From: a virus
DNA: 28,674 bases
Reading direction: 5' to 3' (one strand)
Virus record (IMG/VR): IMGVR_UViG_3300029319_000178
Span: 1-28,674 of that record
Position 1 is the first letter of the stretch. Each line of letters opens with the position of its first letter. The position numbers were made by a program, and so were the translations under genes. Shown in pieces: positions 1,683 to 28,674 of this stretch. The notes below the pieces were generated by a model. The model ran no database searches, was not told the origin of the DNA, and saw only the letters and a list, made by a program, of their open reading frames with translations.

Positions 1683-1829
1683 ATGATTGATAATATAACT
1701 AAATATAATCGACTAACCATATGTATAAACGCAGACATTAAATATTATAAAGTTGTACTTGGCACAATTATTCAAGCCATGCGATACCTCCAGCATGCAA
1801 GGGGGCCAACATGGATAACAACAACGTAA
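1683..1829 (+). CDS. 48-aa upstream ORF overlapping the repressor start
   Basis: This short ORF has an excellent ribosome site (GGAGG at 1673-1677, 5 nt before ATG at 1683). It runs through the start of the CI-like gene in another frame, stopping at 1829, 19 nt inside it. The product has no recognisable domain. It could be a small phage protein, or a leader whose translation controls access to the repressor's own ribosome site (AGGGGG just before 1811). It lies inside the 332-nt gap between cro and the repressor, which otherwise holds operators. Confidence 0.45.
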   Translation: MIDNITKYNRLTICINADIKYYKVVLGTIIQAMRYLQHARGPTWITTT

Positions 1830-2548
1830 TAAACTTTTTTGGAGATATGACAGAACAACAAACGACTGGGAATTTAAAAGCACTGGCACGGCGCGCTGGT
1901 CTTAGTGGTGTGCAGATCGCAGAACAAATGGGTATGCGACCGGAAACAATATCACGTCATCTCAATGGAAAACAAAACATAAGCATCGAGGATGCAATGC
2001 GCTATGCAAAGATACTGAATTGCACAGCTGAAGAAATACTGTTCCAGCGCAGCATGTGTCCGATCATTGGCGAACTAGCGCCGTCCGGTATATTTACGCA
2101 TTACGGACAGAACGAATCAAAGATACGCTATTTAGCTGGGCCACTAAGCTTTCAATCGTATCACGGCGCATATTTTGTGCCTGGATGGTTTACAAAAAAG
2201 AGAACAGCTATTTGTATTATTGATACGCGACCAATAGATAAACGCTACGTCCACAATCAAGCTGTTGGTCAAATTGCACTCAATCACGTCAAAGGTCTTG
2301 GAGAAGATGGTAAAGACGTAACAGTGCTAGGCTATCCATTTGAGAACAGCGATTTTAAAACATACACAGTGCGGCGCATTGTAAACATGGTTGACTCCAT
2401 GCAAAATAATGAACGCAAAAAACACGTTAAGTATCCAATAATGGAAAAAGATTATTTGCCGGAGTGTGAATTGATCTGGTCAGTGCCGGTATCGATGACG
2501 CTGTACGATCCACCGGCGCTCGGTTTCGAGTGCGTAAAAGATAATTGA
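1811..2548 (+). CDS. CI-like phage repressor (HTH_XRE N-terminal domain)
   Basis: This 245-aa protein has an XRE-type HTH at residues ~20-77, with recognition region VQIAEQMGMRPETISRHLNG. The C-terminal domain (about 83-245) is beta-rich with a YFVPGWF segment, as in LexA/CI (S24-like) repressors. I do not see a clear Ala-Gly cleavage site or Ser/Lys dyad, so self-cleavage is uncertain. It is transcribed divergently from the Cro-like gene and toward the recombination genes. Ribosome site AGGGGG precedes the ATG. It probably binds the GTAACA-N5-TGTTAC operators and maintains lysogeny (inference from context). Confidence 0.8.
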   Translation: MDNNNVINFFGDMTEQQTTGNLKALARRAGLSGVQIAEQMGMRPETISRHLNGKQNISIEDAMRYAKILNCTAEEILFQRSMCPIIGELAPSGIFTHYGQNESKIRYLAGPLSFQSYHGAYFVPGWFTKKRTAICIIDTRPIDKRYVHNQAVGQIALNHVKGLGEDGKDVTVLGYPFENSDFKTYTVRRIVNMVDSMQNNERKKHVKYPIMEKDYLPECELIWSVPVSMTLYDPPALGFECVKDN

Positions 2549-5248: not shown

Positions 5249-5776
5249 ATGAGCGCTTTTGCATTGACCGGAAAACACGACTGGGCCGATGCCAAAGGGC
5301 CATGCTGCGGTGTGCTAGCTTGCGCGATAGCGACACAGACTAAATTTGCCGACGCATGGTGGTGGTTCAAAAAAACTTACGAGAAGTGTGCAAGCCCTAG
5401 ATGGAAAGGCAGCACTTACACTCTTTGGTACAAAGCTTTCTTAGACAGACACAATGTCGATTACGAAAGACTTAGCCCTGGTAAGTTTGGCGACAACTGG
5501 TACAAAAAACCTTTGACTTACTTTGCTAGGGTAAAAGCAAAGCCAGACACTGCATACTTAATCACTACTACTGGCCACGCCCAAGTGCTTTACAATGACA
5601 TGGTTGTCGATCAGAGAGGTGCAGTTCCCATCCACGAGTATTGGGGCAAACTCAAAAAGGTAGATGCTGCGATCGAGATCAAAAGATCTAGCGCGATCTA
5701 CCACGCAATCAAAAACATCGATCCCAACGAGTTCGGACTACCACTGTTCGACGCTGCAAACAAGAAAGGTTATTAA
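5249..5776 (+). CDS. papain-like / C39-like putative cysteine peptidase
   Basis: This 175-aa protein is predicted to start at ATG 5249, behind AAAGGAG. An in-frame ATG at 5195 lies inside the conserved leader and lacks a ribosome site. KGPCCGVLACAIAT at about 16-29 gives a candidate nucleophile Cys19 or Cys20 at the head of a hydrophobic helix. TTTGHAQVLYNDMVVDQRG at about 107-124 gives His110 and an Asp/Asn partner, the order of papain-fold C39-like peptidases. No secretion signal is seen. It lies in a repressor-controlled early unit with a TGT-like protein (TAATG coupling), so a role in host takeover or counter-defence is possible but unproven. The C-terminus carries a GLPLF peptide. Confidence 0.6.
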   Translation: MSAFALTGKHDWADAKGPCCGVLACAIATQTKFADAWWWFKKTYEKCASPRWKGSTYTLWYKAFLDRHNVDYERLSPGKFGDNWYKKPLTYFARVKAKPDTAYLITTTGHAQVLYNDMVVDQRGAVPIHEYWGKLKKVDAAIEIKRSSAIYHAIKNIDPNEFGLPLFDAANKKGY

Positions 5777-6528
5777 TGAAAAGATTAGTTCACGGAACAC
5801 CGATAACACCAAAGCGATATCTTCACCAGCTTAAAGGTCACAGTTTCTGCGTCAGCTACATGCACCCGGAGCAGCTAGAAGATTGCATCAAGCTGGTAGG
5901 CAAAGATCAGATCTTGATCCTGGACAACGGCGCGTTTACTGCTTGGAAGAAAGGCATCAAACTAGACGCAGCTTGGTGGGATGGGTTCTACAGCTGGGCC
6001 AACGACGCGATGGATCGATGCGACCAGGCAGTGTGTGTCATCCCGGACGTGATCGGCGGATCTGAGGCAGAGAACATGGCCTTGATCGCAGACGCGATAC
6101 ACAACGACAAAATCAAATACCCCGAAAGAGCGATGGCCATATGGCACATGAATGAGAGTTTCGAACAGCTAGAAAAGCTTTACAGACTTTTTAACTTTGT
6201 TGGTTTCGGCAGCTGCGCCGAGGTTGACATAGCCAGGAACGGCCCAGCCAGCGCCTACTTCAACAAGGTCAAACAAGCTTTCGCCCATATGGATTATTGG
6301 GATGCAAATTACGGACTAGAAAATAGACCCTGGATCCACATGATGCGAGGTCTAGGAGTGCTGCACAAGATCGGTTTCGATAGTGCCGACAGCTGCAACA
6401 TAGCAATGAACCACTGCTACAAGCGAGATAAGATGGTTCACCACGTCAAGCAGTTTGCTGACAGACTCGAGGCAAAAGTTAATCACCAGGAGTTGCACGA
6501 TCTACCATTGTTTAACACAGCTGCGTAA
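5776..6528 (+). CDS. TGT-like TIM-barrel protein (possible DpdA-like enzyme)
   Basis: This 250-aa protein shows a barrel-like series of short blocks: ILILDNGAFTAWKKG (about 46-60), CVIPDVIGG (87-95), AIWHMNES (121-128), FVGFGSCAE (141-149) and PWIHMMRGLGVLHKIGFDSADS (185-206). Asp50, Asp91 and Asp202 are plausible active-site residues. It resembles queuine tRNA-ribosyltransferase-like proteins, including phage DpdA relatives that insert 7-deazaguanines into DNA. No partner synthesis genes (queC/D/E, folE) are in the window. Length is short for a full bacterial TGT. The start overlaps the previous stop; the last residues include DLPLF. Family call moderate. Confidence 0.55.
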   Translation: MKRLVHGTPITPKRYLHQLKGHSFCVSYMHPEQLEDCIKLVGKDQILILDNGAFTAWKKGIKLDAAWWDGFYSWANDAMDRCDQAVCVIPDVIGGSEAENMALIADAIHNDKIKYPERAMAIWHMNESFEQLEKLYRLFNFVGFGSCAEVDIARNGPASAYFNKVKQAFAHMDYWDANYGLENRPWIHMMRGLGVLHKIGFDSADSCNIAMNHCYKRDKMVHHVKQFADRLEAKVNHQELHDLPLFNTAA

Positions 6529-7524: not shown

Positions 7525-7549
7525 GGCCGCGCTTGCGGCCTTTTTTTTT
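7525..7549 (+). terminator. Rho-independent terminator of the early operon
   Basis: A perfect 6-bp GC stem (GGCCGC / GCGGCC, loop GCTT) is followed by nine T residues at 7541-7549. It sits between the last plus-strand early gene and the convergent integrase gene. On the minus strand the downstream U-tract is poor, so it works mainly for plus-strand transcripts. Confidence 0.9.
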
Positions 7550-8765
7550 AGTATGACAATGCTGCTTGATCTTCTCTTGCAGTTTCTTCTGGATCTTCTT
7601 CGTAATCGTTTAGCCAATGTCCGTAAGTTGCGGTTGTGGTGACAGTGTTGCTATGGCCCAGGTTGTTCGACACTTTCCAGATGCCATCCTTTGTGCCGCC
7701 TTTTAAGGCCAGCTGAGCGGAGGCATAGTAATGTCTTAGTTCGTGCCAGGTAATACGAGGAACACCGGCTGCAGCGGCTGCTTTGGCCAGCTTTTTGATA
7801 AACATTGAGGGATGTATTGTATGGCCGCGCGTGTCTTGCCAGATCAGATCTTCTTTTGGCGGCTTGCCCTGGCGCATGTATTCTTCTTGCAGCGCCTTGA
7901 CAACTACCGGTGCAAACCGCAGCTTTCTTTTTGACTTAACAGTTTTTGTCTTGTTGATCTTTCCGTATCGATCGATGCCTTTGTCAACCGCGACAGATCT
8001 AAGATCAAAGTCTACGTCGTTCCAGGTCAATGCTCTTTGTTCGCCCTGGCGCAATCCGGTTTGTGCTGCAAAGAAAGCAGCTAGTCGCCAATTACATTTT
8101 TTGTAACCATGCAGCTGATTGCTGTTGCCGGTCGGTAGCTGCTCGAGGATCCGCTCGACTACATCGCGCTGCACTCTCTCGATCTTGTCTGACTTTGTGT
8201 TCTCCTTGCCGCCGCTCTTTGGTCGTGTGTCACGAAAGATATTGTGATCGGCATAACCAGCCAGGACACAAAACGAATTGAAATGCGTGTAGCTGGCCCA
8301 ATAATTTTTTACAGTTTTTAGGACTCTGTTTTTCTGTGTTGCCGGAACGATCCATTCATAAACTTGCGCCGGGTTGCTGTAAAATTCTAGCGCCGTCATG
8401 TTGCCAACTTTCTTGCCATCGATCTTGATGTTAAGAAAGAAGTTTATGTCGCGCATCGAGTTTTCAAAACTATGCTCCCGGAGATCTCCGGTCTTGATGC
8501 TGTCACGTCTGACTTTTTTGTAGCAGCAATTCTTGTCGGGTTGATGCTGGCCGCAATCGAAAATCTTACGCAGTGTTTTGCCAGCCTTGCCGGACGTGTG
8601 CATTGTAAAATTTTCTGAGATCTCAGCTGCGTAATTTAGCGCCTCTTCCCTGGTACTGAATTTCTTAACTTTTAATCCATGCTTTCTTGCATCAACTGCG
8701 TACTGCTGCGTTTTTCTGCTTGGATAGAATCTAACAAGATTGACAGTGTTTTCTTTTGTGAGCAT
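7548..8765 (-). CDS. int: tyrosine recombinase / phage integrase
   Basis: This 405-aa integrase has a complete catalytic set: Arg239 in TGLRQGEQRALTW, a Lys in TKTVKSKRKLRF (about 278), HELRH with His341 and Arg344, LGHSNT with His371, and Tyr381 in TATYGHW. The N-terminal 1-100 is a basic arm-binding-like region, 100-180 a core-binding SAM-like domain. It catalyses integration at the attP lying about 350 bp upstream of its start. ATG 8765 follows AGGGGGG, which can be paired into a hairpin. The upstream small gene is co-transcribed. The gene appears intact. Confidence 0.96.
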   Translation of the reverse strand: MLTKENTVNLVRFYPSRKTQQYAVDARKHGLKVKKFSTREEALNYAAEISENFTMHTSGKAGKTLRKIFDCGQHQPDKNCCYKKVRRDSIKTGDLREHSFENSMRDINFFLNIKIDGKKVGNMTALEFYSNPAQVYEWIVPATQKNRVLKTVKNYWASYTHFNSFCVLAGYADHNIFRDTRPKSGGKENTKSDKIERVQRDVVERILEQLPTGNSNQLHGYKKCNWRLAAFFAAQTGLRQGEQRALTWNDVDFDLRSVAVDKGIDRYGKINKTKTVKSKRKLRFAPVVVKALQEEYMRQGKPPKEDLIWQDTRGHTIHPSMFIKKLAKAAAAAGVPRITWHELRHYYASAQLALKGGTKDGIWKVSNNLGHSNTVTTTATYGHWLNDYEEDPEETAREDQAALSY

Positions 8766-15562: not shown

Positions 15563-18028
15563 TTACCTCGTTAGATTGTCAAATCTTGGGCCGCGTCGTG
15601 GCTCCGTTCTTCCTGGCCTCCACCAATAAGAATTTCCATATAACTTTTTCTGACGTTTTTCTAAGCGCCGCCGCTTTGCACGTATCTTAGGATCTGTCAT
15701 TGTTGACAACTGATCCCAAACTAATCGCTCCATAGCTAACCGGCTATACCACAATGATGCACCAGGTATGTATCGTTTTGTAAAATTTACTGTTTCCGCT
15801 GCAAAGTTTGTATCTTCTCCCTGGGCCAGCTGCAACAAATTGCCGACAGTTAAATTGTTTACATCATTAGCAAACCCTACTACCGGCCCAGCAATCGCTG
15901 TTGCTAGTCCCTGGCCAAAACGATTTACGTTAGAAAATAGAAAGTCACCATACAATCCAAAGCCACCGGATGCCATAAGAGCATGGCCCCAAAACTTAGG
16001 ATCGTCCATTGGTCTAGGATCCCGGCCTTTCGCAAGCTCTTTCATTTGTATGCCAAAAGCTGCCAACACTGTACCGCCGATAATAAACTGTGCTAGGTAT
16101 CCAGCTTTTTTATTGTTCTTTAACTCTGCAACACCACGAAATAAATGTGTGTTCATAATCGTGACACCAAAGTTTTTATACATGGCAAAGGATCGTAAGA
16201 TCTCACCGCCGATCTCGCCTGGCTGCGTATTACCTAACAACACTCCTCGAGAACGCAGCGATCCGGTAGGAACAGCAAATTCTGTTTCCGTATTAATCAT
16301 TTCTAAAATTCTTGTGCCTAGTCGCTCTGCCTCTCCAGCATCAATATCAGTACGCTCAATTAGCTTTTGTACGTCAAAGAATGTTGCACCCTCATATTCG
16401 AGCAATTCTGTCTGACGTATTACTTCCCAATCTGCCGGACTGAAACCATACCGCTCAAATGCACCGCGTACACCTTTGTCTAACTGTGCAAAAGGTTTAT
16501 CGACGCTATCAGCTAATGTACCTAGAAACTGTTGACCGAAGGCCCATCGACCAGCTTGTGTCCAGGGAGATAATAAAGATCCGCGCATTACCAGGTCGCT
16601 AATACGTCGTGTGATCTCCGGCCCACTTATCTCGCCTATGTAACGCATTTGTGCCGAGGCGATTGTTGTCCAATGATCGGCAATCAATCCTAATCGTGTC
16701 GCAAGTTTACCCCTCTCTTTCGCTTTCATAGGATTCATAAACTTTATGACCTGGTTGAGAGTGTTTACCTGGGGCAAGCCATTAAATTTTCGTGCTAACG
16801 ATGCACTATTTAGATCTGTTATCGCTGTAAAAAATGTTGCTCCTAACTGTGCAGCTGTTAGTAAGTTTCGTAATCCAGCAAAGCCGTTTGCGAAAACACC
16901 GCTTATAGGTGCATTAAGTGTTCCCATATGCGCCCGGTACAATGTATCTATTTTTGCTGACGCTCTGTTTGCTCTGCTTTCTCCCTCGCCCGTTTCCGCA
17001 ACTCGTTTTCGCAGCGCTGTTTTTATAGCATTAATAGTCGTAACCGGGTTTGGCCCTAGAACTTCCATCATAGCAATATCGCGTGATAACGACGTAATAT
17101 GCGTAATCATTGTATCAAAAGCGTTGACGTTACCAAACTCTTGTTGGTACTCAAGCCAGCTATCGCCGTTTTTAAATTTGAGAAAACGATGATCTTGTCG
17201 TCGATTAGCCATCGACCGGCCTTGCATTGCACCGCCAGCCTTTACTTTGTTTAATCCATCTTGCGTTATAGTTGTATATACATCATTAAGAACGATACGT
17301 AATCTAGCCTCGTTAAAAGCTAGACCGGTTTGCTCGTCTATCATTCCCTCGATATCAAGCTTTGCGATCGTAAAATCGACCCACTCATCACGCGATTTCT
17401 TACGGATCCGAACGGCATCGTGAACTTGTGGCATACCCCAATTGCGTAACTTAGGTATTGCACCCCCAGCTGCATTAAATCTTTTACGCAGCATATCTGT
17501 TGTTTGTGTCCAGGCATCCGCCATTTCTCTAGCAGCCGTATCGCCGGTGTTTTCACCAAACAACTCACGCACCATGTTTTTTTGTTTTGCTTTTTGCTGC
17601 GTTTCTCCAAAAATGTTTCTTTTAAATGAGGCTAGTATTTCATCCATTCTTTTAAATGCGATGCTTTTTATTGCCTCTGCTCTGCTTTCTACAGACGAAA
17701 ACTTTTGATCGCGTACATGGCCAAGTAAATTTACCGCTGCATCCGCTGGATCCTGGCGGCCAAATGGTGTTCTGTGTGTGTCCAGGATCTGCTCGATCTC
17801 TTGCCATTTACGTGCTTGCAGTAGTTTTTTTCTGCGTGTTTCGTGTTTTTGTCGCCGGATCGTTGCTAGAGTGTCGGCTGCGGCTCGAGCATCCGCTGGA
17901 GCATTTGCCATATTTCCTCGATACTCCCCGGAAAGCTGCTCAAACATTGTATTGATTTCGTTAGCATCTTCTTCCCTTATCAATCCCTCTTGAACACCAT
18001 CATTTATGCAGCTTTGAAACGTACTCAT
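15563..18028 (-). CDS. internal virion / DNA-ejection protein
   Basis: This 821-aa protein is predicted to start at ATG 18028 (ATGA overlap with the previous stop); a TTG nine bases upstream is less likely. It has a helical, charged N-terminal region with many Arg/Lys (about 40-100), a long helical body, amphipathic or hydrophobic segments near 630-720, and a basic C-terminal tail (about 790-815). Order after the gp14/gp15-like and polyvalent genes and before the fibre equals T7 gene 16. Block YIPGASLWYSRLAMERLVWDQL near the C-terminus is characteristic of such podovirus proteins. No lytic transglycosylase motif is seen. Likely forms the trans-envelope conduit. Confidence 0.72.
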   Translation of the reverse strand: MSTFQSCINDGVQEGLIREEDANEINTMFEQLSGEYRGNMANAPADARAAADTLATIRRQKHETRRKKLLQARKWQEIEQILDTHRTPFGRQDPADAAVNLLGHVRDQKFSSVESRAEAIKSIAFKRMDEILASFKRNIFGETQQKAKQKNMVRELFGENTGDTAAREMADAWTQTTDMLRKRFNAAGGAIPKLRNWGMPQVHDAVRIRKKSRDEWVDFTIAKLDIEGMIDEQTGLAFNEARLRIVLNDVYTTITQDGLNKVKAGGAMQGRSMANRRQDHRFLKFKNGDSWLEYQQEFGNVNAFDTMITHITSLSRDIAMMEVLGPNPVTTINAIKTALRKRVAETGEGESRANRASAKIDTLYRAHMGTLNAPISGVFANGFAGLRNLLTAAQLGATFFTAITDLNSASLARKFNGLPQVNTLNQVIKFMNPMKAKERGKLATRLGLIADHWTTIASAQMRYIGEISGPEITRRISDLVMRGSLLSPWTQAGRWAFGQQFLGTLADSVDKPFAQLDKGVRGAFERYGFSPADWEVIRQTELLEYEGATFFDVQKLIERTDIDAGEAERLGTRILEMINTETEFAVPTGSLRSRGVLLGNTQPGEIGGEILRSFAMYKNFGVTIMNTHLFRGVAELKNNKKAGYLAQFIIGGTVLAAFGIQMKELAKGRDPRPMDDPKFWGHALMASGGFGLYGDFLFSNVNRFGQGLATAIAGPVVGFANDVNNLTVGNLLQLAQGEDTNFAAETVNFTKRYIPGASLWYSRLAMERLVWDQLSTMTDPKIRAKRRRLEKRQKKLYGNSYWWRPGRTEPRRGPRFDNLTR

Positions 18029-21000
18029 TTTACGCAATACCCCATCCGCTCGATCATTTTATTCTCATAATCGATCTCGTCTTTTATCTGTCGCATTGTT
18101 TGATTTACAACTGTAATATCGCCCGTGGCCGGATCTGTTACCTGGCCGACCGGAACTTCATAATCTAGTTGCTGGTCTGTAACTTCTTCGCTATCTCTAA
18201 GACTTGCTGTTTCGCCCTCGGCGAGTTCGCTCTCTGGATCCCTCGTTCCTCCGCCGCGTCGTAATCGAATATCAGTGTCTTTGACGACTTCTCTTGTATC
18301 TTCGATGAGGACTTTGCCTTCGTCGATTTCGCCGTTGTTGTCGATTCTTGTGTAGCCATCAGCTTTCCCTTGTTGTTTGAGCGTGTCGTATGTTTTACCA
18401 GGATTATCACCCACTTGACGAACATAGTCTGGATTTATTAATCGTCCGGTCTTAACAAAACGCATAAACATTCTGTTTCTTGCATTACTATAAGTAACAG
18501 ACATATCAACTAAATCAACAGAATATCCCTTTTCTTTAAGCTTTGTAATAAGTCTTTCTATTGATCCAGGACTGCCGCCGACTTTTGGTATTACGACATT
18601 ATCACCAAATTCTAACGCAAGATTGAGTACTCGCTCTGCAATATCGCTGCTTTCTTCATGTACTGCGTTTGCTCCTATGCCGCCCTCGTACTCCGGTATT
18701 AATTTTTTTGCCTCGTCACTATCAATAATAGCTGCGTTCATCTTACGTGCTATGGGATTTGCAAGCGTTGATTTGCCGGCAGCTGGTGGCCCCAAGACAA
18801 TAGCAGCACGTCTATTTTGATTTATATACTGACCTTGTGGAAGATCTAATCCATCGTCTTTCCAGGCCATATTTCTTGCGCCACGATATAAAGCAGCGAT
18901 CGCGTCAGCATACCCAAGTATTTCATCTTCAATCTCAACTCCCATTTTCTGAAGAGATTTTGTATTAAATACTCTCGATGTTTCAAAAGCCTCTGTTCCA
19001 TAACCAGGCAAAGTCGTCGTGTCTGTTTTGGATTGGGCCTCCTCTATAGCTTTTGTAACCGCCGGATGTGCATCAACTGTAGCCTCGTCAGCACCCTCTT
19101 CTAATATCCGCCCCAGGTCGTTTCGTAATTCATCGTCAGATTGAAAAGCCTCGCGCGGTGTTTTAGGCGGCGGCTCCTGGAACATATCGGCTGTTAGCTG
19201 ATCCATTTGCTGCGTGGATCCTGGGCCGGCTGCAACGTCGAATGATTCTAAACTTTGCTCAATTGTGCTTGCTGGTACTTCGCCGTTCTGCGGCGGAGCA
19301 TTGATAGCGCGTCCTGGATTGCTAGGGATTTCCCCAAAGAAATCGCCTCTGTCAACTGCTCCTCGGACAGACTCGACAAAGCTGTCTGTAGCCGCTGCAA
19401 ATTTTCCATCTCGTTTGGCGGCTTTGGCGGCAGCTGTGAGGTCGTCGCTGAGTTGTCCTCTTCTGTTTGCAAGCGTTTGGATGAGGTCGATCGCTTCTGC
19501 GTCTTTCTGGATTTTTTGCTCATTCGCACTCCTTGCCAGCTTATTGCCAGCTGACTCAAACTTTGTTTGGTTACGTACTATAGTATTAAATGCGCTTTTA
19601 TCACGCTGCAATATTTTTATTGCGTTATCGAGAACCTTTGCTCTTTCAAAATATAAGCTTTCTTCTTCTAATTTGTCGCCAAACAAACTCTCCTGGTTGA
19701 CCTTTTCTGTGCCGCTATCCATAACTTGCCTGGTGACAGCCTCTGTCTGCACGTCGTTTTCCGGCTTCACTTTGGCAATAACATTCATTGCAGCACGCTG
19801 CATTGTGCCATCATCCGGAATCATTCGGCCCACTACGCTAGCTTGTTGTGGTGAAACAAGGCCATTCTTAAATAATCCAAATGCCTCGTCGTCCTCGATG
19901 TTGACTATGTTACGTGCCATGCGTACCAGGGCAGATCGTGGCGGCAACTCACCAAAGAGTTTTTTATCACCACGTAAAACCTTTACAGCATCAAGAACAG
20001 TACCGGTTCCCTCGGCAATATTTTTCATAGCAGCAACGACCATTGCTTGCTCTCTTGATATGCCGTCTTTTTCACGCAAGACAGATCCTAGAAGAAATAC
20101 ATCCTGGCTAGGATCCTGGCTTTTTATACGTTTTGCTAGACCTAATCGCTGGTGTCCATCTGCTATAAAGAACTTACCATCAGCTTGCTCGTAAACGACC
20201 ACTGTACCAGCTTTGATCGGATCCCACTTTTTAACGTCTTTTAACCTTTCTGTAACACCAAACTCGTCACCGCCCTCTTTGAACTGAAACGCTTTTGCAT
20301 CGACGTTCAGTTCGTCTACCTCGAACCTAGACACAACATCATTTATTGTTGCTCTCGGCTTTACTTTGGGTTGTGCCTCTAATTGTGTTTCCAGATCTTT
20401 CTTCTGTTCGTTAAGAACTGTAAGTATTTGTTTTGCATCATCTAAGTTTTTCTTAGACTCAAGTGCATCTATTCTTCGTGCTGCGTCATTGAAATCATCG
20501 TATGTTAGCTCTCTAGTTTTTCCTAACTGATCTAACTCAAATGCGATCGCCTCTTCTTCTTCTTTGAATTGTTGTTGAAAAAGATCTCTTGCCTCTTCTA
20601 TTTGTTTTATTTCTTTGTTAATTTCGTCTAAATTTGCTGCACCCTGGCCAGGATTTGCTTGTTTTTGTATCTCAGCTTTTGTTACACCGCTTGCCGGCTG
20701 GTCATCTATACCAGGTAACACACCATCATTCACAGCATCATCGACCGCATCCATCCTATTTAAATGCTCATCAACATCATTTATAGGCTTGTTTGCAAAC
20801 GTATTTTCGATCTCATCGACCATATCTGCCGCTGTATCGGCCGTTTGACTAAATCTTTGACCGACAGACTGATGAGCGCTTTTCATGGCCTCATAGCCTT
20901 TTTTTGCCTGGTTGACAGTAAGTTTAACTGTGTCACCTCCGACCTTAAAAGCAAGAGGAAACGCAGCGGATAATGCTGCTGCCGCTCCTACGTTTGTAGC

Positions 21001-21672
21001 AAAAGTTTCCCAGGTATAAGGCAAATCCAAAGTTTTGTACCAATCTTGCACCTCGGCTTGTATCAACGCTTCACTTGTGCCGCCTATGATTGCCTCACGA
21101 AACATCAATCCATACAATGTTTTTAGACCAGGCATAATCATGCCGGTTCCTATGGTAGATTGAATAACCGGATCATTAAGAGATCCAACAGCTGCACCGG
21201 AAAACTGACCTAACCATTTTTTCCAATCATTAGATCGCGCAGCAATCGCGTCGTTTTCTTCCGCTCTGTTTTGCGCCAGCTTGATTGCACGATCCATTAT
21301 GAAATCGTGTGTAAGCTGCTCAAACTCGACACCTAAAGTTTCGGTATTATTTTTTGCAAAATCTATAATTTGTTCAACATCGTGCCGATATTTAAATTGA
21401 TTAGTGCCGTGTGTTGCACCACCACTAAATATACCTTTGTTCAAGTGCTTGGCTGGATTAGAAAACTCTTGACCGGTCTTTCTTTGTATCTCATCTATAA
21501 ATGGTTGCCAGGCATCTTCTAGCATAACAGCACGAGAGTTTGAGTTACCTCTTGCTCTTTGATCCTCTCTCGATGCAGAATAGTTTTGCATGAAAGATGA
21601 TTGCGCCTCAGACGTGCCAGCTATTTTGTCAAGATACGATCGACTTCTATATTTTTGAAATATCGCGCTCAT
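18025..21672 (-). CDS. giant polyvalent virion protein with ParB-like and Zeta-toxin-like domains
   Basis: This 1215-aa protein occupies an ejected internal protein slot. Residues 1-300 are helical with amphipathic/hydrophobic stretches (about 158-190, 225-245), as in podovirus ejection proteins. A coiled coil spans about 345-435. A ParB/sulfiredoxin-like domain covers about 445-570, with IADGHQRLGLAKR at 503-515. Residues 950-1135 form a Zeta-toxin-type kinase: Walker A GPPAAGKST (961-969), IIDSDEAKKLIPEY (982-995), AVHEESSDIAERVLNLAL (1003-1020). Zeta toxins phosphorylate UDP-GlcNAc or small nucleotide substrates. Such mixed proteins match the published idea of 'polyvalent' proteins delivered with phage DNA. 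Overlaps both neighbours by ATGA. Delivery and enzymatic activity are inferred. Confidence 0.82.
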   Translation of the reverse strand: MSAIFQKYRSRSYLDKIAGTSEAQSSFMQNYSASREDQRARGNSNSRAVMLEDAWQPFIDEIQRKTGQEFSNPAKHLNKGIFSGGATHGTNQFKYRHDVEQIIDFAKNNTETLGVEFEQLTHDFIMDRAIKLAQNRAEENDAIAARSNDWKKWLGQFSGAAVGSLNDPVIQSTIGTGMIMPGLKTLYGLMFREAIIGGTSEALIQAEVQDWYKTLDLPYTWETFATNVGAAAALSAAFPLAFKVGGDTVKLTVNQAKKGYEAMKSAHQSVGQRFSQTADTAADMVDEIENTFANKPINDVDEHLNRMDAVDDAVNDGVLPGIDDQPASGVTKAEIQKQANPGQGAANLDEINKEIKQIEEARDLFQQQFKEEEEAIAFELDQLGKTRELTYDDFNDAARRIDALESKKNLDDAKQILTVLNEQKKDLETQLEAQPKVKPRATINDVVSRFEVDELNVDAKAFQFKEGGDEFGVTERLKDVKKWDPIKAGTVVVYEQADGKFFIADGHQRLGLAKRIKSQDPSQDVFLLGSVLREKDGISREQAMVVAAMKNIAEGTGTVLDAVKVLRGDKKLFGELPPRSALVRMARNIVNIEDDEAFGLFKNGLVSPQQASVVGRMIPDDGTMQRAAMNVIAKVKPENDVQTEAVTRQVMDSGTEKVNQESLFGDKLEEESLYFERAKVLDNAIKILQRDKSAFNTIVRNQTKFESAGNKLARSANEQKIQKDAEAIDLIQTLANRRGQLSDDLTAAAKAAKRDGKFAAATDSFVESVRGAVDRGDFFGEIPSNPGRAINAPPQNGEVPASTIEQSLESFDVAAGPGSTQQMDQLTADMFQEPPPKTPREAFQSDDELRNDLGRILEEGADEATVDAHPAVTKAIEEAQSKTDTTTLPGYGTEAFETSRVFNTKSLQKMGVEIEDEILGYADAIAALYRGARNMAWKDDGLDLPQGQYINQNRRAAIVLGPPAAGKSTLANPIARKMNAAIIDSDEAKKLIPEYEGGIGANAVHEESSDIAERVLNLALEFGDNVVIPKVGGSPGSIERLITKLKEKGYSVDLVDMSVTYSNARNRMFMRFVKTGRLINPDYVRQVGDNPGKTYDTLKQQGKADGYTRIDNNGEIDEGKVLIEDTREVVKDTDIRLRRGGGTRDPESELAEGETASLRDSEEVTDQQLDYEVPVGQVTDPATGDITVVNQTMRQIKDEIDYENKMIERMGYCVK
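19248..19523 (-). CDS. possible nested gene inside the polyvalent ORF (91 aa)
   Basis: In another frame within the polyvalent gene (its residues ~717-808), an ATG at 19523 follows AAGGAG at 19529-19534 with ideal 5-nt spacing. The product begins MSKKSRKTQKRS, is basic at the N-terminus and ends in a helical segment (LSSLSEEQLTEAISLGKSLAIQDALSMLRRR). The host frame here is a low-complexity linker between the ParB-like and Zeta-like domains, so dual coding is tolerable. It could encode a small regulator or antitoxin of the Zeta domain; equally it may be chance. Confidence 0.35.
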   Translation of the reverse strand: MSKKSRKTQKRSTSSKRLQTEEDNSATTSQLPPKPPNEMENLQRLQTALSSLSEEQLTEAISLGKSLAIQDALSMLRRRTAKYQQAQLSKV

Positions 21673-27635: not shown

Positions 27636-28280
27636 TTATTCGTTACAAGCTATTTCAACGACCATTTCTTCTTGCATCCTGGATGCACCAAAGGTCGAGC
27701 AATAGTAGATTTGTGTTGAATAGGATTTGTCTGGTCGAGGATCGATCTTCGCCGTCACGTCCTTACCAAGTGCCATTACCACACCCTCACGCGCATACGC
27801 ATAGCATAGTCGTGATGTGCCATCGTCTTTTAAACGATTGGATGTAATGAATTTAAATCCCATAAATGAATCAACAGTTCCATTTACCAGCGCTTTGACA
27901 CTGTTAAAGTCTGCGCTAGTTACGGATGTTGTGTTGAGTAGATCCTCGATCTGCTCGGGAGATACAACAATATATCTCTCGATTGAGGGATCAACACTGT
28001 TTTGATCCATAATTTTTTTAGCACTAATTAGCTTAGCGATTGTCAAACCGGCACTTCCATGCACGATTTTCTGACCACTAGGCAATGCTGTGCTAGTTCC
28101 ACCGGACACACCGGTTTTAGCTGTACCGCCTAAAGCACTGATGATTTCATCATCCATTGCTCTACCGATAGCTGCCGCCGCTGCTTTGCCGTATGTTGAC
28201 TCCGGACTAATAAGTAGCCGAATTTTGTCCTGGTCATCTACAAGATCTGCGTATTCATAGTCAGACATTGTAACCATTCT
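27636..28280 (-). CDS. major capsid protein, exon 2 (C-terminal part)
   Basis: This exon encodes the C-terminal 214 residues of the capsid protein, from RMVTMSDYEYADLVDDQDKIRLLISPESTYGKAAAAAIGRAMDDEII through FKFITSNRLKDD and ending ACNE. The pattern HAR-RMV...YADLVDD-DKIR...YGKAA-AIGRAMDD is that of podovirus capsid proteins with an HK97-type fold. It begins after the intron; an ATG at 28283 looks like a start but spans the 3' splice site. Exon 1 ends on a full codon (CGT), so splicing joins HAR to RMV in frame. The protein forms the icosahedral shell. Confidence 0.92.
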   Translation of the reverse strand, partial: RMVTMSDYEYADLVDDQDKIRLLISPESTYGKAAAAAIGRAMDDEIISALGGTAKTGVSGGTSTALPSGQKIVHGSAGLTIAKLISAKKIMDQNSVDPSIERYIVVSPEQIEDLLNTTSVTSADFNSVKALVNGTVDSFMGFKFITSNRLKDDGTSRLCYAYAREGVVMALGKDVTAKIDPRPDKSYSTQIYYCSTFGASRMQEEMVVEIACNE

Positions 28281-28528
28281 CATTTGTGTTCGCTTTGTTT
28301 CGTTAAAACAAAACCGCCTTTCGGCTGCTATATGTCACCATATAGATCAGACTATATCATCATCCTGGTTGGATGCTCTGCGCTTCGGATCACTTGATCC
28401 TACTTCCTCTCGGAATAGTCGTTGCACCTTCCTATTTCTAGGCTTGGCTCAGAATTATCTCAGTAAGACTTTTTCTGAGTTCACAGAGTTTTTCGAAATG
28501 TATTTCTACATTAAGCCGCTGAAAGTTA
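28281..28528 (-). ncRNA. group I self-splicing intron in the major capsid gene (ORF-less, IA-like)
   Basis: The 248-nt intron runs from 28528 to 28281 on the minus strand. All core helices can be drawn: P1 (exon CCGU plus intron U with AGCGG, U-G at the 5' splice site); P2 (AATGTA-GAAA-TACATT); P3 (CTCTGTG 28488-28482 with CGCAGAG 28382-28376); P4 (CTCAGAA with TTCTGAG); P5 (GTCT/AGAT); P6 (CCTA-GAAA-TAGG); P7 (GACTA 28420-28416 with TAGTC 28354-28350); P7.1 and P7.2 (28415-28404, 28400-28387); P8 (CATCC/GGATG); P9 (CTATATG-GTGA-CATATAG); P9.1 (GCC-GAAA-GGC); P9.2. The last base is G (omega-G). P7.1/P7.2 suggest subgroup IA. Unspliced RNA meets UAA at the first intron codon. No homing endonuclease ORF is present. 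Confidence 0.94.
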
Positions 28529-28674
28529 ACGGGCGTGGGGTGTATCCATGATGGGGGTAGAAGCGTGTCGACTCGCTCGTTTTTGCGCGACCGCTGACCC
28601 GATCTGCTCGAAAAAGGCTTTCTCGCCGTTAACAGTTTCCTGTCGTACAGAATTACGCAGTAATGAACCCATTT
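28529..28674 (-). CDS. major capsid protein, exon 1 (partial, runs off the window)
   Basis: In the frame that includes an ATG at 28672, 48 codons read MGSLLRNSVRQETV, NGEKAFFEQIGSA, VAQKRASRHASTPIMDTPHAR. This matches the conserved N-terminal part of podovirus capsid proteins (G-x-LR-x-VR, E-x-V-x-G-x-x-AFFEQIG, RH-x-x-TP, TPH-x-R). The true start is probably further upstream, outside the window, since the family has some tens of residues before this point. The exon ends with CGT at 28529 and the next codon is TAA, the first bases of the intron. Confidence 0.9.

Follow-up and report, generated by a model that had tools for sequence, protein, structure and literature searches.

Results and Discussion

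A group I intron interrupts the major capsid gene

The window analyzed here, a stretch of 28,674 nucleotides, covers positions 1-28674 of an IMG/VR scaffold of 36421 bases from an uncultured HTVC010P-like phage. At its right end, the minus strand carries a major capsid gene in two pieces: part of the 5' exon at 28529..28674 (codons 24-71, ending in CAC GCC CGT) and the 3' exon at 27636..28280 (codons 72-285 and the stop). Between codons 71 and 72 lies a block of 248 nt at 28281..28528, also on the minus strand, which the initial annotation had proposed to be a group I intron from the letters alone. A covariance-model search bore this out. RF00028 matched at 28538-28328 (minus strand) with 95.6 bits (E = 1e-23) over the complete model (positions 1-253), the gathering score being 50, and it was the sole Rfam family over threshold in the whole window.

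The identity of the interrupted gene was also as annotated. Exon 2 matched PF19821 (Phage_capsid_2) in a profile search with E = 1.4e-69, and its protein is about 62% identical to HTVC010P-type capsid proteins. Joining 28529 to 28280 gives a single reading frame through the capsid protein, and uninterrupted intronless relatives fix the exact ends of the intron (28528-28281): three of them (L003, L004, and L008) encode MDTPHAR followed directly by RMVTMSDYEY, which is exactly the join after HAR that had been predicted. The intron starts with an in-frame UAA and ends with a G (the omega G, at 28281), both of which had been noted, and the AAATG at its 3' end provides exon 2 with a start codon in frame (ORF 27636-28283). 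A protein insertion in place of an intron was ruled out, as the relatives lack the insert and the insert contains stops. Both exons are, judged by codon comparison, under purifying selection; G000+ and the intronless L008 differ by 45 silent and two amino-acid-changing codons.

We found no introns in the capsid genes of cultured pelagiphages. In all 22 HTVC010P-type records among the matches listed, the gene is in one piece and of full or nearly full length, and in Hodr, a more distant pelagiphage (capsid at 33.5%), it is uninterrupted over 90% of its length. Homologues that carry the block as protein, which would have spoken against an intron, were thus not seen among these Pelagibacter phages. 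Pelagibacter is the host of HTVC010P; the contigs studied here range from 39 to 56% G+C, and their phages need not share that host.

Elsewhere in the window, a tyrosine integrase (7548-8765, minus strand) and a Cro/CI-type repressor (1811-2548, plus strand) suggest that the phage is probably temperate. A protein encoded at 5776-6528 (plus strand) matches phrog_887, queuine tRNA-ribosyltransferase, and the virion-gene region contains a frame for a 1215-aa protein (18025-21672, minus strand) in which a Zeta_toxin/AAA domain (PF06414, E = 7.4e-20) lies close to the C-terminus.

The intron folds into a covarying group I core

The centroid fold of the intron contains P1, P2, P3, P4, P5, P6, P7.1, P7.2, P8, P9, P9.1, and P9.2, with P7 (GACUA/UAGUC) as a pseudoknot. 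The minimum free energy is -73.8 kcal/mol (z = -3.95), and none of 200 shuffled sequences was equally low. Five loops are of the GNRA type (P2 GAAA, P6 GAAA, P7.1 GAGA, P9 GUGA, and P9.1 GAAA). In P1, the exon 1 end CCGU (28529..28532) pairs with the internal guide sequence GCGG (28516..28519), leaving a U.G pair at the 5' splice site. The two strands of P7, the guanosine-binding helix, lie at 28416..28420 (GACUA) and 28350..28354 (UAGUC). All of these elements are on the minus strand.

We aligned 14 introns of capsid genes and tested on them this structure, written from the window intron's own sequence. In total, 93.5% of pair cells were formed and 51 of the 71 pairs showed changes on both sides, amounting to 217 doubly changed cells vs 66 in shuffles and 25-55 in slid-partner controls. 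Pairing was nearly complete in P3 (99%), P4 (98%), and P8 (96%) and complete in P7 (100%). P7.1 and P7.2, which sit between P7 and P3, were both 100% paired, with double changes. The P1-P9.2 core, the five GNRA loops, and the P7 strands described in the initial annotation are all present, and the 14 introns covary strongly in the fold they share. P1 shows a matched change of its own: one codon-64 intron (s64_L034) has exon CCAU with guide GUGG, whereas the other codon-64 introns examined have CCGU with GCGG, and the change is silent in the protein. Because the P7.1 and P7.2 hairpins lie between P7 and P3, we take the intron to be IA2-like, an assignment made from this feature rather than from a subgroup model.

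The capsid gene is occupied at ten sites

In order to place this intron in context, we gathered 230 distinct complete capsid genes from five IMG/VR scans by capsid queries and one by intron pattern. At least one group I intron was present in 27 of them, a proportion that does not represent a population frequency, as the queries were partly chosen around intron-bearing genes. The 34 introns occupy ten sites (codons 43, 60, 64, 65, 68, 69, 71, 83, 92, and 257), with members at every site exceeding the RF00028 gathering score. Single genes hold up to three (L167 and L168 have three; L056, L154, and L217 have two). The introns are all short (206-266 nt, the 3' splice site of the codon-83 introns being provisional) and ORF-less. 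Nine of the ten sites fall within 50 codons (P = 6e-5 vs uniform placement), and the sites are more conserved than random ones (P = 0.004).

Occupation was detected in this gene only. Among 32 whole records, there were 22 RF00028 matches, every one at the capsid gene, in a set partly picked for capsid introns; 50 further whole records had none. The informative part of these 82-record scans is the absence of RF00028 outside the capsid gene.

Silent exon tracts accompany the introns

Directly beyond the window, at record positions 28675-28684, lies a run of 10 N, and the record segment 28675-29013 (L002:1676-2014) comprises this gap and, after it, a further copy of the capsid N-terminus that lacks the intron. 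The record also has overlapping ends (216 nt, 96%). Because of the intronless second copy past the gap and the overlapping ends, the record is a mixed-strain, near-circular assembly. We read the gap flanks as two alleles joined by the scaffolder, and we rejected in favor of this scaffolding gap the alternative of a genuine genome in which the start of the capsid gene is duplicated in tandem. The intron-plus and intron-minus alleles encode identical proteins over the 258 nt compared; their 30 substitutions, in 24 codons, cause no amino acid changes and are confined to the interval from -70 to +47 around the insertion site. Assembly-graph overlap would by itself account for part of the identity of the outer flanks. 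In the intronless allele, exon 1 ends in GCTAGG, which cannot form P1 with the window intron, so the intron could have arrived there only together with exon DNA.

An exact DNA pattern search located the window intron at the same site in two other contigs (L083 and L084), with only 2 of 248 positions changed. Of 160 exon positions around the site, about 35 do not match the window, the adjoining sequences CACGCCCGT and AGAATGGTTAC being the exception, which leaves a near-identical intron inside divergent exons. Such a contrast between intron and flanks indicates that the intron moved horizontally not long ago and took a short tract with it. In these two contigs, the intron contains an open frame in phase with the capsid gene. 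A second clear case is provided by L033 (intron-minus) and L187 (codon-64 intron), which are separated by 21 silent changes, all between -25 and +83 of the site, and are otherwise identical throughout the 855-nt capsid gene. Exon co-conversion is a recognized mark of intron homing driven by an endonuclease (PMC2988022). Intron-plus and intron-minus alleles with exon tracts of the co-conversion type are thus present, and silent tracts of this kind mark recent transfer; a homing event behind them is putative.

In 33 disjoint close pairs, normalized silent divergence is elevated across codons 46-135 and 241-270. These codons hold most of the introns; none was found at codons 106-135, and the codon-43 site lies just outside. 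The peak is also present in intronless pairs, and pairs of intronless phages show silent tracts of equal size, which points to local conversion that is independent of a present intron. The footprint is consistent with repeated conversion and falls short of proving it. We also observed short silent conversion tracts away from known introns (L154, L155, L156, and other pairs; for example, nt 450-540 in L155/L156), suggesting that the capsid gene recombines locally at many places.

A putative mechanism of splicing and spread

Our preferred reading, to which we assign a probability of roughly 0.8, is that of a functional, IA2-like self-splicing intron that has spread by gene conversion in mixed infections. 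Two-step, guanosine-initiated self-splicing would remove the intron from the late mRNA, and the capsid protein would be made from spliced RNA only, with translation of unspliced RNA ending at the UAA that forms the first intron codon. As far as sequence can tell, the intron should self-splice in vivo and capsid synthesis should depend on it; that virion yield would in turn depend on splicing, as the initial annotation suggested, seems sound. The spread would be selfish. During mixed infection, gene conversion would copy the intron, along with a short length of adjoining exon, into related capsid alleles. The conversion may begin with a double-strand break for which the endonuclease comes in trans, i.e. 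collaborative homing.

The initial annotation remarked that a homing endonuclease is absent and asked how the intron spreads. Indeed, no stop-free frame longer than 85 codons occurs in any of 28 distinct introns. Searches of the record gave no match to HNH (PF01844), HNH_3 (PF13392), GIY-YIG, or LAGLIDADG_3, and a search for Endonuclease VII, run without a positive control, gave none either. Among the part of the record's proteins that was scanned with Pfam, the recognizable nucleases are a VRR_NUC protein and the integrase. Four of the 32 related records (L226-L229), with and without introns, contain an HNH_3 frame some kilobases from the capsid gene, and these frames are candidate free-standing endonucleases. 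When the endonuclease families were searched as partners of the capsid introns, no link to the introns was found.

This absence of an endonuclease gene from both the intron and the record would suit a functional but passive intron, spread by ordinary homologous recombination of capsid alleles, with no cutting and no drive. Mosaic capsid alleles, which are common among intronless phages too, point the same way. However, the clean intron-plus/intron-minus pairs differ by a short divergent tract that straddles the intron site itself, and the two codon ranges that cover most of the sites are those in which close pairs show elevated normalized silent divergence. On balance, we consider passive spread rather unlikely.

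Movement from one site to another is a separate matter, for which the relations among the introns are informative. The codon-43, 60, 68, and 83 introns form one supported clade (99/96), within which the joining of the codon-68 and codon-83 introns is flagged for long branches, and the codon-65 introns adjoin a Klebsiella phage intron with weak support. A single clade of capsid introns vs seven other phage introns was neither supported nor rejected (p-AU 0.505). Carriers are patchy on the capsid tree, with six changes for six carriers at codon 64 and three for three at each of codons 43 and 68. From the clade pattern, more than one arrival and some movement between sites appear likely.

Such movement could have occurred if introns reverse-spliced into capsid mRNA wherever a short sequence complementary to the guide was available and the cDNA then recombined. 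The abundance of capsid mRNA would explain the choice of this gene, where ten sites are used and none was found elsewhere. The supported four-site clade is in keeping with this route, as is the common guide GCGG on CCGU of the codon-64, 71, and 92 introns. The same holds for the similarities of the window intron, to which the L210 intron at codon 69 is closer (75%) than the L212 intron at codon 71, its own site (66%). Against it, the grouping of the codon-71 introns is nonsignificant (p-AU 0.25), the long-branch warning falls within the very clade invoked, and endonucleases likewise favor conserved sites. An untargeted survey of the examined proteins showed no reverse transcriptase, and mobility by this route is without direct experimental support (PMC3984707). 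We regard reverse splicing as an unlikely, and for the changes of site a speculative, explanation. A broader and doubtful idea is that the capsid gene is a stable colony of ORF-less introns, moving between sites and phages by reverse splicing into the abundant mRNA or by an unrecognized endonuclease in trans, with a silent footprint that lasts even after intron loss.

Two further explanations question the intron itself. A degenerate intron, whose core no longer splices and whose alleles are dead or make a shortened capsid from a downstream AUG, could draw on the in-frame start at the AAATG end, and we consider it very improbable given that the core is intact with covarying helices and that the same intron occurs in three contigs with the amino acids of both exons conserved. 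An assembly artefact, suggested by the scaffold gap at the window end and the intronless exon duplicate beyond it, is refuted for the intron by the independent contigs L083 and L084, which have the same intron in a continuous capsid gene, and can practically be dismissed.

Implications and comparison with known systems

Production of the most abundant virion protein would here require splicing after transcription. The capsid gene is a common marker, and annotators should note that in roughly one in eight of the distinct relatives we examined it is broken up or shortened by ORF calling. Evidence on how ORF-less group I introns spread, including the role of reverse splicing, is only circumstantial (PMC3984707). 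This question can be tested here with a small gene, since ten of its sites hold related introns, both intron-plus and intron-minus alleles occur in one metagenome, and silent tracts mark recent transfer.

Group I introns in capsid genes are already known (LittleE and Tuc2009; PMC3706429), as are up to three introns in a gene (PMC11878797). We found no report, in the open-licence literature, of introns in HTVC010P-type capsid genes and, with incomplete coverage of the literature, none of a phage lineage whose capsid gene is a hotspot for ORF-less introns at multiple sites.

The closest cases are in temperate phages. The mycobacteriophage LittleE has a capsid intron of about 820 bp that encloses a reading frame for an endonuclease, and BAKA and Optimus have tail-gene introns, that of BAKA being about 265 bp long with no endonuclease gene; all are probable group I introns in virion genes, and their splicing was proven by RT-PCR (PMC3706429). 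A capsid intron in the lactococcal phage Tuc2009 is cited in the same paper. The introns described here resemble those of LittleE, BAKA, and Optimus in being group I introns in virion genes, and that of BAKA also in lacking an endonuclease gene. LittleE differs in that one site is occupied in one phage, in a different capsid lineage and with an endonuclease frame, whereas here multiple sites are occupied and the endonuclease frame is absent.

Concentration in one gene has a precedent in Bastillevirinae phages, whose introns gather in the DNA polymerase gene, with up to three per gene; they lie mainly in replication genes, average 802 nt, and mostly carry endonucleases (PMC11878797). The Twort introns (Landthaler and Shub 1999, as cited in PMC11878797) belong to the same comparison. 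One gene with up to three introns is the shared feature, while the present introns are 206-266 nt long, ORF-less, and in the capsid gene.

With regard to mechanism, the intron in collaborative or trans homing lacks an ORF, and the cut at its site is made by a free-standing endonuclease (PMC2988022, PMC3984707). The ORF-less intron at a conserved site and the short exchanged exon tracts are common to both systems; here, no endonuclease can be paired with the introns, the HNH_3 frames of four of 32 related records being absent from this one. For nuclear rDNA group I introns, spread by reverse splicing has been proposed (as cited in PMC3984707). They share with the present introns the occupation of several sites of one highly expressed gene by related, often ORF-less introns, but here the gene is a protein-coding phage gene and its silent exon tracts point to transfer at the level of DNA.
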